From positions 1 through 55,181 of the forward strand of contig CAITND010000003.1 in NCBI GenBank assembly GCA_903893625.1: a stretch of DNA of 55,181 nucleotides, written 5' to 3'. The notes under the pieces were generated by a model. It was not told the DNA's origin, searched no databases, and worked only from the letters and a program-made list of their open reading frames with translations. Positions 11,333 to 16,631 of the stretch are shown piece by piece (position 1 is the first letter of the stretch; each line of letters starts with the position of its first letter). Source of the DNA: an uncultured Oscillatoriales cyanobacterium. GTDB lineage: Bacteria; Cyanobacteriota; Cyanobacteriia; Cyanobacteriales; Microcoleaceae. The position numbers were made by a program, and so were the translations under genes.

Positions 11333-12622
11333 TTACCCCTGAATTTGTTCAGGCATATTGCCTGTTTTTACTTCTAAGGTAAGGGATTGTCCTTTGCGGT
11401 TTAACTCTACTTTCATCGGTGTTCCCACATTTTGATTTTGAACTAATTCTTGAACCGCATCGGATTTTGTAATGGGTTTATCATCAATTTTTACAATAAT
11501 ATCTCCGGGTTTTAATCCAGATTTCATTGCAGGAGAACTCGGAATAACATTAACAATTAAAACCCCGTTATCTTGAGTAATCGGGAATTCTAAATCAGGA
11601 GTTTCTTGCAATTCTTGACGCAATTCGGGGGTGAGTGTGACCATTTCAATCCCTAAATAGGCGTGTTCAGCACGTCCAGTTGTGGCTAATTGTTGGGCAA
11701 TTTGTTGAGCTTTATTAATCGGAATGGCAAACCCTAAACCTTGAGCGCCACTAATAATTGCGGTATTCATTCCAACAACTTCCCCTCTAGCATTGAGCAG
11801 TGGCCCCCCTGAATTTCCGGGATTAATTGCTGCATCGGTTTGAATAAAACCAATGCGTTTATCGGGAACCCCAACATCACTACTCGACCGTCCTGTGGCA
11901 CTAATAATTCCCACTGTCACCGAGTTATCTAATCCTAATGGATTGCCAATGGCGATCGCCCATTCTCCAGGAGATAATGCCTCAGAATTGCCAATTTTAA
12001 CACTGGGCAAATTATCAGCATTAATTTTAATCACAGCAACATCCGTCACTGAATCTGATCCTAAGACTTTTCCCTCAAATCGACGACCATCTCTTAAAAC
12101 AACTTGCACCCGATCAGTTCCCTCTACAACGTGAGAATTTGTCATAATCACGCCATCGGCCGAAAGAATAAAACCTGAACCCGTCCCCTGTTCAACGGGG
12201 CCATTAGAACGGCGTTTAGGGGGTTCAGCACCAAAAAATTCTTCTGGGAAGCCATCCCCAAACTGATCAAATCCTCGACGAGCCACTTGACGAGAGGCAT
12301 TGATCCGAACCACCGCCGGCCCGACTTGATTAACCGCATCAACAATAAAGTTAGAATCTACAGGCTTTAACGCTGCTGCTAAATTGGCTTTTTGACCTAA
12401 CCAGGTGGCTGGGTTGGGGGGAGAACTTCCCTTATTGTTTAAATTAGAAGCAGGAGAGGGAACTGTTTGGGAAAGGGCTTGAGGCGTTGACGGTGGAACC
12501 GTTGAAGCCATGCGGGTCGCTAACCAACGATCACCGAGTAAGGCAACCCCTCCTCCGATCAACAATAAGATCATGGTACGGAGAGGGTTTTGGCGAATTT
12601 CTTTGTCAGATGTACTCTTCAT
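11333..12622 (-). CDS. HtrA/Deg family serine protease with PDZ domain
   Basis: 429 residues. Residues 14-31 form a signal anchor (TMILLLIGGGVALLG). The trypsin-like domain has the full triad: His164 (TNSHVVEG), Asp194 (VTDVAVI) and Ser271 (GNSGGPLL). One PDZ domain follows at about 325-425 (SGLKPGDIIVKIDD). This is the cyanobacterial HhoA/HhoB/HtrA architecture; the exact paralogue cannot be fixed from sequence alone. Expected role: degradation of misfolded proteins in the periplasm or thylakoid lumen. It ends about 50 bases before def on the same strand, separated by heptamer-type sequence. The 12623-12856 stretch upstream is its promoter region shared divergently with the dnaA remnant. Confidence 0.94.
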   Translation of the reverse strand: MKSTSDKEIRQNPLRTMILLLIGGGVALLGDRWLATRMASTVPPSTPQALSQTVPSPASNLNNKGSSPPNPATWLGQKANLAAALKPVDSNFIVDAVNQVGPAVVRINASRQVARRGFDQFGDGFPEEFFGAEPPKRRSNGPVEQGTGSGFILSADGVIMTNSHVVEGTDRVQVVLRDGRRFEGKVLGSDSVTDVAVIKINADNLPSVKIGNSEALSPGEWAIAIGNPLGLDNSVTVGIISATGRSSSDVGVPDKRIGFIQTDAAINPGNSGGPLLNARGEVVGMNTAIISGAQGLGFAIPINKAQQIAQQLATTGRAEHAYLGIEMVTLTPELRQELQETPDLEFPITQDNGVLIVNVIPSSPAMKSGLKPGDIIVKIDDKPITKSDAVQELVQNQNVGTPMKVELNRKGQSLTLEVKTGNMPEQIQG

Positions 12623-12856
12623 CGACGGATTTTTAAGGTGTTTATAATATCAGTAATTTTGAACTATTTCCTAGAGTTCAGGGTTTTTCTTAGCCTCCCA
12701 TTGATTGGTGTTGACTCTAATTGGATTGTTCCTCTACTATTATCGCTTTTATTTTTCAAGGTTTGCGGAAGTTGAAAAATTTTAAATTTCCGTTGATCCG
12801 GTCTCAGGGAGGATAGAGAAACTGCTATCCTGTAGTTTTAACGCTTGGGTCTAGCT

Positions 12857-13103
12857 ATGGAACTCCCAATCGACCGTCTGTGGGATCAAGTTCTGGAACG
12901 TCTTCAGGTACAATTGGGACGTCCAACTTTTGATATAGCGCTACACACTAGGGAACAGGGAACAGGGAACAGGGAACAGTAAGCAGTGAGTGAGTTTCAG
13001 GATTTAAAAGTGTCCTAACTATAATGCGTAGCGCTATACCTGGATTAAAACCGCTTGGGCTGAACAACTAGACAACAATTGTTCACTCAACTGTCATGTA
13101 TAG
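12857..13103 (+). pseudogene. dnaA: dnaA remnant (N-terminal ~45 codons) interrupted by a MITE
   Basis: ATG 12857 opens MELPIDRLWDQVLERLQVQ then LGRPTFD, which is the conserved N-terminal domain I of cyanobacterial DnaA. After TTTGA a 101-bp element is inserted; removing it together with one TA restores GAT-ACC-TGG and the frame continues as TWIKTAWAEQLDNNC, again DnaA. A few codons later similarity stops and TAG follows at 13101. The rest of dnaA (domains II-IV, about 400 codons) is missing: only about 200 bases separate this point from dnaN. As it stands the ATG frame ends at TGA 12986-12988 after 43 codons. An intact dnaA could exist elsewhere in the genome; the window cannot tell. Confidence 0.85.
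12934..13038. mobile_element. 101-bp MITE with TA target duplication
   Basis: Terminal inverted repeats TAGCGCTACACA and TGCGTAGCGCTA flank 101 bp (12936-13036), bordered on each side by TA (12934-12935 and 13037-13038). TA duplication is typical of IS630/Tc1-mariner elements, so this is probably a non-autonomous derivative. It has no coding capacity and contains four GGGAACA heptamers. It disrupts the dnaA reading frame. Confidence 0.85.
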
Positions 13104-13310
13104 TTGTGAAAAAATTTCCCAGTTACGCCATCAAGATCGGGATTTAGGCCATGAATGGAGATTGATCAGGAGAATCATTCCTCCGCAGAGAGATTTTACC
13201 TGGTTCAAATCGAGGGTTTTGTGGGGTATAATCAAATGTTTGGTTCTCTCGTCAACGTTCCTGACGTTGGAGAGAATCCCTATGGTAATACATATCAATA
13301 GAGGCGAATT

Positions 13311-14471
13311 ATGAAATTTATTGTTGAGCAGGACAAATTAAGTTCTAATTTATCTTGGGTTTCTAGGGCGATTCCTTCCCGTCCCAATCATCCGATTTTA
13401 TCTAATATTTTAGTTGATGCAGATGCAGAAAATCAACGCTTAAATTTAACAGCATTTGATTTGAGTTTAGGCATTCGGGCGAGTATGCCGGCGACGGTTG
13501 AGGAGGGCGGAACTTTAACGGTACCTGCTAAATTATTTAATGATATTGTCTCGCGTTTACCGGGGGGAGAAATTACCCTAGACGATGAAATTGGAGAGGC
13601 AATTGTAACATTAACTTCCAGTTCAGGACAATATCAAATCCGAGGAATGGCGTCGGAAGAATATCCAGAATTACCGTCTATTCAAGCGGGAGATTCGATT
13701 CATTTAGCCGCAGACTCTTTAATTTCTGGATTAAAAGGCACGTTATTTGCCACCAGTCCCGATGAAACCAAACAAGTTTTAACGGGGGTGCATTTAAAGG
13801 TTCAAAATAATACGATAGAATTTGCTTCAACGGATGGTCATCGATTAGCCGTTGTGCAAACGGAAAATTTAAGCGAAACTGATCCCGATGAAGAATTAGA
13901 GGAGTTTGAAGTAACAGTTCCCGCACGCGCGTTAAGAGAAGTGGAGCGGATGGTCGCCATGCGAAGTGGTGAAAAAGACGATTCTCCGGTAATTATTACG
14001 TTGCGATTTGATGAAAGTCAAGTGATTTTTGAGTTGGGTGAACAACGGTTAAATACTCGCAAATTAGAAGGGGCTTATCCGGCTTATAATCAGTTAATTC
14101 CTCATCAATTTGTCAACCAAATTAATTTAGATCGCCGGGGATTTGTGGGAGCGTTAGAACGAATTGCGGTTTTAGCTTCCCAAAAAAATGATATTGTTAA
14201 ATGTACCGTTGATCATGTCAATCAACAAATTGCTTTATCTGTAGAAGCCGCCGATGTGGGCAATGCTTTAGAATCTCTCCCGGCTCAAATTTCTGGGGAT
14301 GAACCGAAGGAGTTGGCGTTTAATGTTAAATACTTATTAGAAGGATTAAAAGTATTTAATACTTCGGAAATTTCCCTCCAGTTAAATGCGGCTACTAGCC
14401 CCGTTATTGTTAATCCTTTGGGTGGGATTAAAATGATTTATTTAGTTATGCCTGTACAATTGAGAAATTAA
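13311..14471 (+). CDS. dnaN: DNA polymerase III beta subunit (sliding clamp)
   Basis: 386 residues, normal length, starting MKFIVEQDKLSSNLSWVSRAI. Three repeated clamp domains are recognisable: RPNHPILSNILVDA (domain 1), VLTGVHLKV and STDGHRLAVV (domain 2), and the C-terminal VIVNPLGGIKMIYLVMPVQLR with the usual MPVQLR ending. The clamp encircles DNA and tethers polymerase III. AGAGGCG lies upstream of the ATG at 13311. In most bacteria it follows dnaA; here only a broken dnaA start lies in front. No clear cluster of TTWTNCACA DnaA boxes was seen in 12623-13310. Confidence 0.97.
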   Translation: MKFIVEQDKLSSNLSWVSRAIPSRPNHPILSNILVDADAENQRLNLTAFDLSLGIRASMPATVEEGGTLTVPAKLFNDIVSRLPGGEITLDDEIGEAIVTLTSSSGQYQIRGMASEEYPELPSIQAGDSIHLAADSLISGLKGTLFATSPDETKQVLTGVHLKVQNNTIEFASTDGHRLAVVQTENLSETDPDEELEEFEVTVPARALREVERMVAMRSGEKDDSPVIITLRFDESQVIFELGEQRLNTRKLEGAYPAYNQLIPHQFVNQINLDRRGFVGALERIAVLASQKNDIVKCTVDHVNQQIALSVEAADVGNALESLPAQISGDEPKELAFNVKYLLEGLKVFNTSEISLQLNAATSPVIVNPLGGIKMIYLVMPVQLRN

Positions 14472-14740
14472 TCCTCAAGAAGCCGGGTTTCTGGAACAAT
14501 ACCTTTGCCAATTTTTGTCGCTGTTATTCTCGCGTGTATAGCAGGGAACAGGGAACAGCTTAACCCGAAGGTGGATGCAAATTTCACCGTCTGGTTTGCT
14601 GCATCAGTATCAAACAAGAATATTATTTAATTTTTATACAATTTTGATAGTTTGTAGTTGATTTAAAGGATTGACTTTTAAATCATTTTTATGATATAAT
14701 GAATAAATTAGAGTTTGCTTTTCAGGAGGCAATTCAGAAG

Positions 14741-15529
14741 ATGGCAAGTATAAATACAGGGATAGAATGGACAGATAGAACTTGGAATCCTACAACTGGC
14801 TGCAATAAAGTTAGCCCTGGCTGTACCCATTGCTATGCAGAAGCAATCACCAAGCGTTTTACTCAAAATTTTAATAATGGATTTGCTTTAACATTGCATC
14901 CAGAAAGGATAGAAGAACCATTGAAGTGGCGGAAACCCAGTCGAATTTTTGTTAACTCTATGAGTGACTTATTCCATGAAGATATCTCTGTAGAATTTCT
15001 TCAGAAAGTATTTGACGTTATTCATAAAACTCCTCATCATATTTATCAAATTTTAACCAAAAGGCATGAGCGATTACTGGAAGTTGCTCCTCAATTAGAA
15101 TGGTCAGATAATATTTGGATGGGAGTTTCTGTTGAAAATCAAAACTATGTTGATCGAATTGATTATTTAAGAAAAGTTCCAGCATCCGTTCGTTTTCTAT
15201 CCTGTGAACCTTTATTGGGGCCACTAAAACTTGATTTAAAAGGAATTGACTGGGTGATTGTTGGTGGAGAATCAGGAATCAAACATCGACCCATGCAGTT
15301 AGAATGGGCTGAAGATATTAGGCAACAATGTGAAGCCGAAAATGTGGCATTTTTCTTTAAACAAGTTGGAGGAAGAACACCAAAAGCAGGAGGAAGACTA
15401 TTAGAGGATAAAATTTGGGATGAAATGCCTGAAGCTTGGTATGAACATCAAAAAAAATGGCAAGGATATTCTGCTTCATCAACTCGTAAATCTAAAACAG
15501 AAAATTTTCCTATTTTGGTGGAAATGTAA
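14741..15529 (+). CDS. DUF5131 / phage Gp37-Gp68 family three-Cys protein
   Basis: 262 residues from ATG 14741, which has AGGAGG about ten bases upstream; an ATG at 14699 in frame lacks a ribosome site. Near the N terminus is TGIEWTDRTWNPTTG followed by the three-Cys motif Cys21-x6-Cys28-x2-Cys31 (CNKVSPGCTHCYAE). The arrangement recalls radical SAM cluster loops. Further conserved sections are FVNSMSDLFHEDI, ILTKRHERL, GVSVENQ and FLSCEPLLGPL, then VGGESG. The family occurs in phages and bacterial accessory regions; its activity is not established. It is encoded tail to tail with TcmP, the two coding regions overlapping by 20 bases. Confidence 0.88.
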   Translation: MASINTGIEWTDRTWNPTTGCNKVSPGCTHCYAEAITKRFTQNFNNGFALTLHPERIEEPLKWRKPSRIFVNSMSDLFHEDISVEFLQKVFDVIHKTPHHIYQILTKRHERLLEVAPQLEWSDNIWMGVSVENQNYVDRIDYLRKVPASVRFLSCEPLLGPLKLDLKGIDWVIVGGESGIKHRPMQLEWAEDIRQQCEAENVAFFFKQVGGRTPKAGGRLLEDKIWDEMPEAWYEHQKKWQGYSASSTRKSKTENFPILVEM

Positions 15530-16631
15530 CTTTGACTGTATCTGCAAATGTTTTTTCACCTTTAACTATTTTTCGTTTTGATGGTTCAGTTATAATCTTG
15601 TCTTGTTCTTCTAGTTTTAAAAGAGCATCTTTGTAATTCCTCTTAATATAAGGTTTGCCAACATTATGCTGTTCATAAACTTCGTTCATTGTTAATGTCT
15701 GACCCGAAAATTCATCCAGTAACATATTCTCTAAATCGTCAAGAGGTCGTGAAGGAAATATTAGAAGTTGTGAGCTTGTAGCTGGGTTATACTCAAATGA
15801 AGGTACACCTTGACTTTGTTCTGTACTAGAACTAGCTTTAGCCATAATCTCTTTCATAATTGAGTAACCTTTTATGTTTTTAGATACAAAAATTAAGTGA
15901 TGAGTTGTTCTTTTTCCTTGATCATTTTTAAAACCAAATGGCAATACATACTTACCACCTATTTCTTTTACAGCCTGAGAAATATACTCTATAATAATTA
16001 GTTCTCTTTCATCGGGAGTTTTTGTTTTGAGTTGTGATCGCAAATTCTCGGCTCTTTCTTTGCCAAATAAGGCATTCATGTGTTCTTTGACTAATTGATT
16101 ATTTAAGCCCGAATTAATACGGTTATAATTAAAGAAGAATATACAATCACAGCCCCAATCTTTAATCACTGATCCAATCAATTCTAGTGATAATCCTTTA
16201 TATCCCCAGGGATCAACAAACAAGAGAGCAGGAATTAAAGATTTCTCCTTGAATGTCCTTAAAATTTCCTCATCTACTTCACCGCTTCTGATCAGGGGTT
16301 CATTTTTTAATAAATTAATATCAGGAAGATAGTCAATAGCTTTTTTAAGGGATTCAGTATAATTGGGATCAAGATCATTAAAGAATGTGACAAGTAAATT
16401 TTGCATATCAGGATCATTAATTGCCTGCTCTAAAATTAGTATGGGAGTAGATTTAGAACCATCTTCATAATAACCTGGCCCACAAAACAGATCAATATAT
16501 GCAATTTTTGTCTTCCATTTTTTGGCTTGTGGGATGATCACTTGAGCCCATGCCCCAAAATATTTAGTTACAATTCCAGCTTTAACTAACGATTGTTTTT
16601 TTTGCTGCTCAAAGAAAGAATTATCTGCCAT
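15510..16631 (-). CDS. tcmP: Three-Cys-motif partner protein TcmP
   Basis: 373 residues. Near residues 45-53 is YIDLFCGPGYYEDG, a methyltransferase-like Rossmann motif, and near 138 LLFVDPWGYKG, resembling the DPPY-type catalytic motif. The C-terminal third (GQTLTMNEVYEQHNVG, YIKRNYKDALLKLEE) looks like a winged helix. These match the family named as partner of DUF5131 proteins, and that partner is directly convergent here. A modification role, perhaps on nucleic acid, is plausible but unproven. Codon use is AT-rich like much of the window. Its start ATG 16631 is followed upstream by a 107-base gap, with no other gene in the unit. Confidence 0.88.
   Translation of the reverse strand: MADNSFFEQQKKQSLVKAGIVTKYFGAWAQVIIPQAKKWKTKIAYIDLFCGPGYYEDGSKSTPILILEQAINDPDMQNLLVTFFNDLDPNYTESLKKAIDYLPDINLLKNEPLIRSGEVDEEILRTFKEKSLIPALLFVDPWGYKGLSLELIGSVIKDWGCDCIFFFNYNRINSGLNNQLVKEHMNALFGKERAENLRSQLKTKTPDERELIIIEYISQAVKEIGGKYVLPFGFKNDQGKRTTHHLIFVSKNIKGYSIMKEIMAKASSSTEQSQGVPSFEYNPATSSQLLIFPSRPLDDLENMLLDEFSGQTLTMNEVYEQHNVGKPYIKRNYKDALLKLEEQDKIITEPSKRKIVKGEKTFADTVKVTFPPK

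Follow-up and report, generated by a model that had tools for sequence, protein, structure and literature searches.

DnaA starts chromosome copying and is nearly universal in free-living bacteria. The window analyzed here, a stretch of 55,181 nucleotides, belongs, as contig C3, to the 99.84% complete draft genome G000 (5,827,500 bases in 277 contigs) from the genus Planktothrix, whose members are free-living plankton. Only short pieces of dnaA are found upstream of dnaN in this window, which raises the question of whether the gene is dead and, if so, how the chromosome is copied. We conclude with high confidence that the locus represents a dead, recently deleted dnaA; this chromosome is probably copied without DnaA.

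The G000 locus consists of htrA on the minus strand, 234 bp of upstream sequence, the dnaA remnants and dnaN. The divergent left neighbor encodes an HtrA/DegP-like serine protease with Trypsin_2 and PDZ domains (11333-12622, minus strand; assigned by Pfam and synteny) and is present in eight of the nine other Planktothrix contexts, the exception being G004. All features from here up to and including dnaN are given on the plus strand, apart from the insert, which is left unstranded. The former dnaA upstream region (12623-12856) is colinear with its counterparts in G008, G002 and G003, where the locus is intact, and, together with the first 79 bp of dnaA, shows 88-89% identity to them over 379 bp. 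On the right, dnaN (13311-14471) is intact, encoding a 386 aa protein with 92-97% amino acid identity to its counterparts in nine other Planktothrix genomes.

The intact locus of G008, the nearest sampled relative (DnaN 97% identical to G000), was used as the reference. Its DnaA protein aligned to three places in the G000 locus. The first match (12857-12949, codons 1-31, E 8.7e-9) bears out the original prediction that the start of DnaA is still readable. Codons 1-26 of this match are dnaA (remnant 1, 12857-12935, also recovered by nucleotide alignment), and what follows is insert sequence; the sequence read in frame from remnant 1 enters the insert and reaches a stop after about 41 codons. 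The second match (13038-13088, codons 27-43, E 0.002) covers remnant 2 (13037-13082), which holds codons 27-41 and the first base of codon 42. The third (13084-13161, codons 419-444, E 1.4e-6) covers remnant 3 (13083-13147; codons 419-439, the end of domain IV), which reads HSTVMYSCEKISQLRHQDRDL and is 91% identical to G008 over 65 bp. About 190 of the 1374 nt of dnaA are left in G000. The gene had been predicted to resume behind the insert and then vanish, with the remaining 400 or so codons gone. It does resume and its body is absent, but it does not vanish at that point: the C-terminal island of codons 419-439 at 13083-13147 had been overlooked.

At the nucleotide level G000 matches G008 without a break up to 12935 (89% over 379 bp, of which 300 bp lie upstream of dnaA), and the alignment resumes at 13036, behind the insert (96% over 54 bp). 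The coordinates of two G008 alignments place a first deletion at 13082/13083, where about 1130 bp of the dnaA body are absent relative to G008; this length is not a multiple of three and the deletion breaks the frame. A second deletion, which the original prediction did not contain, is located at the 5-mer TTTAG (13143-13147), where the ends of two G008 alignments overlap by five bases, representing microhomology, and the G008 coordinates jump by 424 bp; its true length may differ from this value because the G008 spacer has repeats of its own. The second deletion took away the final codons of dnaA as well as the cluster of DnaA boxes ahead of dnaN. Past it, G000 matches G008 to 13297 (79% over 158 bp), and a further match (98% over 64 bp) sets in shortly before the dnaN start. 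G008 itself carries an extra segment, roughly 400 bp long, inserted between its DnaA boxes and dnaN, with ends that we take to be IS200/IS605-like.

The insert at codon 26 is a miniature inverted-repeat element (MITE; 12936-13036). As originally described, 101 bp separate a TA at 12934-12935 from its duplicate at 13037-13038, and dnaA passes from codon 26 to codon 27 across the element. It is short and non-coding, possesses imperfect terminal inverted repeats of about 15 bp (TAGCGCTAC...) and contains GGGAACA heptanucleotide repeats; the two arms, TATAGCGCTACACACTA and TAATGCGTAGCGCTATA, are 88% complementary. The uninterrupted insertion site is found in G008, G002 and G003. The element is present in many copies: scoring 40 of 128 candidate stretches in G000 gave 44 matches, and 18 of 30 loci fetched contain the whole element with inverted ends much like these, the copy in the G000 dnaA being one of them. 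Matches are present in 10/10 Planktothrix genomes. No other terminal repeats at up to 2 mismatches occur in the 55-kb window. Mobilization may be of the IS630/mariner type, judging from the TA target. Comparison with G008 shows three lesions in G000 (the MITE at codon 26 and the two deletions) that all arose after the split from G008. These three cannot be placed in order, so the MITE, which may or may not have come first, is no more than a possible cause of the dnaA loss.

The deleted spacer is where an origin would be expected. TTTTCCACA is described as the cyanobacterial DnaA box, with oriC located between dnaA and dnaN, and Nostoc strains in which dnaA and dnaN lie apart are also mentioned (PMC5987646). 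The dnaA-dnaN spacers of G008, G002 and G003 each contain three exact TTTTCCACA boxes and two with one mismatch, against means of 0.13-0.23 expected by shuffling. In G000, no box at ≤1 mismatch is found in the spacer left before dnaN (13148-13310), and the whole interval 12623-13310 contains one single-mismatch match, so that the TTTTCCACA cluster adjoining dnaN that characterizes a cyanobacterial-type oriC is absent. Similarly, the 250 bp before dnaN contain no DnaA box in the six other dnaA-less genomes described below. We regard the cluster as a putative oriC that, judging from the alignments, was lost along with dnaA in G000. Genome-wide box loss as a trace of DnaA loss was rejected, since dnaA-less genomes are not depleted: the seven dnaA-less genomes have 20.3-25.0 boxes per Mb and the three bearers have 21.7-22.5, and each of the ten exceeds the reversed-pattern control by a factor of 1.8 to 3.7. 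Among the box places listed, a three-box cluster in G009 (C1:2702805-2703272) was rejected as a possible new origin because it lies inside a repeat-rich 555-aa open reading frame.

The G000 assembly contains no other DnaA, in agreement with the earlier suggestion that no functional copy exists elsewhere. Profile searches of the whole draft returned 0 matches each for PF00308 (Bac_DnaA) and PF08299 (Bac_DnaA_C), and searching with the full DnaA sequence at E<=10 recovered the three remnants only and no piece of the missing body. The same profiles matched 13/14 (PF00308) and 10/14 (PF08299) control genomes; PF00308 is lenient, also matching three archaeal controls, and may hide some losses. In this near-complete draft neither the AAA+ nor the DNA-binding domain of DnaA is encoded; dnaN, PriA and RNase HI are kept.

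To place this locus within its genus, we compared G000 with nine other Planktothrix genomes (G001-G009), among them P. rubescens PCC 7821 (G001), Planktothrix sp. PCC 11201 (G004), P. paucivesiculata PCC 9631 (G007) and the metagenome-assembled genomes Planktothrix sp. UBA8402 (G005) and Oscillatoriales CG2_30_40_61 (G006). An intact dnaA encoding 457 aa is present in G002, G003 and G008 and was not found in G000, G001, G004, G005, G006, G007 and G009 (7/10, with G005 being 73% complete). The six dnaA-less genomes other than G000, one of which is a chromosome-level record, contain no dnaA remnant at E<=10. In a tree of seven concatenated proteins (G004 represented by DnaN only, G005 by DnaN, HtrA and part of Def), G000 groups with G008 (support 0.94) and G002 with G003 (1.0), and these four are separated from the six dnaA-less genomes with a support of 1.0. 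Five of these six have a short spacer between htrA and dnaN; its similarity to the intact loci breaks off about 130 bp upstream of where dnaA used to begin and returns about 25 bp before the TATAAT hexamer of dnaN. G004 shares the right side of this junction and has other sequence on the left. The G000 junction ends differ from those of the sister clade. These alignments show that the sister clade, including P. rubescens PCC 7821, lost dnaA and the boxes through a deletion of its own with different ends. Given the tree grouping and the different breakpoints, dnaA and its boxes were lost at least twice in Planktothrix, whatever the position of the root.

Two rival explanations of this history were weighed. 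The stub could be an assembly artefact, in which the MITE repeat and mis-joined contigs simulate a broken gene while an intact dnaA went unassembled. The draft consists of 277 contigs, making a dnaA in an unassembled piece formally possible, and the MITE is a high-copy element whose length of about 101 bp is close to that of short reads. However, the three dnaA pieces keep the order they have in G008 and are colinear with it and with both neighboring genes; neither deletion junction falls within the repeat, and codons 26 and 27 are continuous across the MITE with its TA duplication. The missing body is nowhere in G000 at E<=10 and six sister genomes, one of them chromosome-level, likewise lack dnaA, five of them in the DnaA_C survey below as well, making an artefact very improbable. 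Alternatively, dnaA could have been lost once in the Planktothrix ancestor and regained by transfer in G008, G002 and G003, as might be suggested by the 7/10 genus members without a detected dnaA (including the 73% complete G005). We give this hardly any credence: the intact copies occupy the ancestral htrA-dnaN site together with the box cluster and with flanks that are 88-89% similar, the breakpoints of G000 and the sister clade are not the same, and DnaA_C is kept in 35/35 other family genomes.

The last number comes from a wider survey. PF00308 was matched in 25/26 family members of other genera, the one without a match being 55% complete. Among the 44 family genomes that are ≥95% complete, DnaA_C is absent in six, all of them Planktothrix (6/9), and kept in all 35 non-Planktothrix genomes. 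Across the phylum, 367/388 genomes that are ≥97% complete match PF00308 and 21 do not; the negative genomes listed (20 of 21) all belong to the order of G000 and represent 12 genera. Absence of dnaA is uncommon but repeated within this order. Near-complete PF00308-negative genomes are also found in another family of the order (f25, genera g39, g38 and g64), with both listed members of g39 lacking a match, and these genera possibly represent further dnaA losses. In another genus of the Planktothrix family, the DnaA AAA+ match is split into two pieces 4 bases apart (G011:C12:54253-54736; open frames of 195 and 289 aa), which could be a frameshifted dnaA or a sequencing error. Two other order members have matches that are possible dnaA remnants: a truncated PF00308 match with a stop inside (G052:C86:30085-30288, E 1.5e-12) and a weak PF00308 match in G421 (E 1e-4).

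The state of the remnants indicates that the loss in G000 is recent. Across the 62 remnant codons, changes private to G000 relative to the three intact genes comprise four synonymous and three non-synonymous ones, two of the latter lying at the deletion junction, in codons 42 and 420. For G008, the same stretch shows seven synonymous and three non-synonymous codon differences from both G002 and G003, a count that relies on fewer references and is not strictly comparable. The synonymous divergence (dS) between G000 and G008 is about 0.35 for dnaN and htrA. Although the numbers are small, the remnants look like a gene that was constrained until recently. The original prediction of an ongoing loss is better replaced by a recent and completed one, as the gene is dead and its pieces, with the same caution as to numbers, are little decayed. 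In the three bearers, dN/dS (three pairs each) is 0.065-0.092 for dnaA, 0.027-0.073 for dnaN and 0.063-0.084 for htrA, pointing to purifying selection on dnaA like that on its neighbors; dnaA is therefore not visibly dispensable in these genomes. Relaxed selection on dnaA in the bearers was considered and set aside since dN/dS resembles that of dnaN and htrA and no clear relaxation is seen; in the pair G002-G003, however, dnaA has the higher value (0.092, against 0.027 for dnaN).

The dnaN leader contains a TATAAT promoter-like hexamer (13227-13232) that alignment identifies in 10/10 Planktothrix genomes and that represents a putative promoter element. dnaN would have been spared because both losses ended upstream of this box, consistent with its continued expression. 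A hairpin is predicted at 13242-13278 (-21.5 kcal/mol, z -2.3) and survives the G000 deletions. Among the three sequences folded, the dnaA-bearing G002 has a counterpart (z -1.9) and P. rubescens has no such hairpin (z +0.5).

Two genes lie directly 3' of dnaN: 14699-15529 encodes a DUF5131 protein and the convergent 15510-16631 a protein with a GMT-like wHTH domain, presumably of the three-Cys-motif partner type. A search of the dnaN contexts of the nine other Planktothrix genomes, which extend 0.5 to 6 kb past dnaN, gave no match to either protein at E<=1e-20, and both genes may have been inserted here in G000. Extra, diverged DnaN-like proteins (37-44% identity) are encoded in G002, G003, G004 and G007, one or two in each; G000 and five other Planktothrix genomes do not encode them.

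With no DnaA encoded in G000, its chromosome would have to be copied without this protein. Initiation independent of DnaA and oriC, often at multiple sites as in other cyanobacteria that lack dnaA or can dispense with it, is the most likely mode, and the retained PriA/restart machinery might, at a guess, act as helicase loader. PriA and RNase HI are each encoded in 10/10 Planktothrix genomes, so PriA provides no contrast between dnaA-less genomes and bearers. DnaA-independent initiation may already have been established in the Planktothrix common ancestor, leaving dnaA and its boxes optional and then lost in parallel at least twice, with the window capturing one loss soon after it happened; we consider this scenario about as probable as its negation. 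GC skew was irregular in both the dnaA-less G001 (P 0.13) and the dnaA-bearing G018 (P 0.40), each represented by 40 samples of 20 kb that cover parts of the chromosome, and open reading frame strand bias in 40 such samples gave P 0.21 and P 0.50, respectively. GC skew was therefore discarded as a guide to replication mode, as the two genomes are not separable.

Other modes of DnaA-free replication have to be weighed against this one. In E. coli, loss of RNase HI is a route to growth without dnaA and oriC, and constitutive stable DNA replication of this type could in principle operate in Planktothrix. Since RNase HI is encoded in all ten genomes, dnaA-less or not, its loss was rejected as the enabling change and we consider this mode highly unlikely. 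A replicon takeover, in which a plasmid-type or phage-type initiator established a new fixed chromosomal origin, would account for the loss of both dnaA and oriC, and, according to Ohbayashi et al. 2020 (PMC7198777), Synechococcus PCC 7002 has one site of replication initiation that works without DnaA. Yet such an initiator is so far hypothetical in Planktothrix, and the G001 skew lacks a clear two-arc pattern (P 0.13, 40 samples), although this is equally so for the dnaA-bearing relative. We regard a takeover as unlikely.

Our literature search found no report of dnaA loss in Planktothrix, although a paper on the complete P. agardhii NIES-204 genome (2021, Harmful Algae) may mention it; a study of 13 completed Planktothrix genomes (PMC9366434) was not among the papers whose searchable text contains both 'Planktothrix' and 'dnaA'. 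What appears to be new is the recent remnant, the loss of the origin and the paired losses, while dnaA loss in free-living cyanobacteria as such is known. The Planktothrix case is unusually clear in that an intermediate state, origin loss and parallel loss are visible together. One genus with intact, freshly broken and fully erased dnaA-oriC allows replication before and after the loss to be compared in close relatives, and named dnaA-less strains such as P. rubescens PCC 7821 are available in collections. If our reading is correct, Planktothrix represents a natural series of these three states of the initiator in closely related free-living species. Such a series would help to identify the substitute for DnaA and the changes that have to come before its loss.

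The original prediction had pointed to the loss or dispensability of dnaA in some cyanobacteria, and both are documented by Ohbayashi et al. 2020 (PMC7198777). Cyanobacterium and Geminocystis form a free-living clade without dnaA, with multiple origins described for C. aponinum PCC 10605 and Geminocystis NIES-3708. Like G000, these cyanobacteria lack any dnaA and still replicate. Unlike in Planktothrix, their loss is placed in the common ancestor of the clade, and the words 'remnant', 'pseudogene' and 'Planktothrix' do not occur in the main text; in G000, pieces are readable and the boxes are gone, and the loss occurred twice within one genus. 'Nostoc azollae' 0708 similarly has a fragmented dnaA beside dnaN and involvement of mobile DNA, with a putative transposase between the two genes, but it is a plant symbiont with an eroding genome and 31% pseudogenes (PMC2900214), a comparison that for Planktothrix covers the dnaA locus alone. 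In Synechocystis PCC 6803, Nostoc PCC 7120 and Synechococcus PCC 7002, dnaA can be disrupted without a growth defect under optimal conditions (PMC7198777); in contrast to G000, these strains keep the gene. By analogy, such dnaA-bearing, DnaA-independent strains may resemble the Planktothrix ancestor just before the loss.
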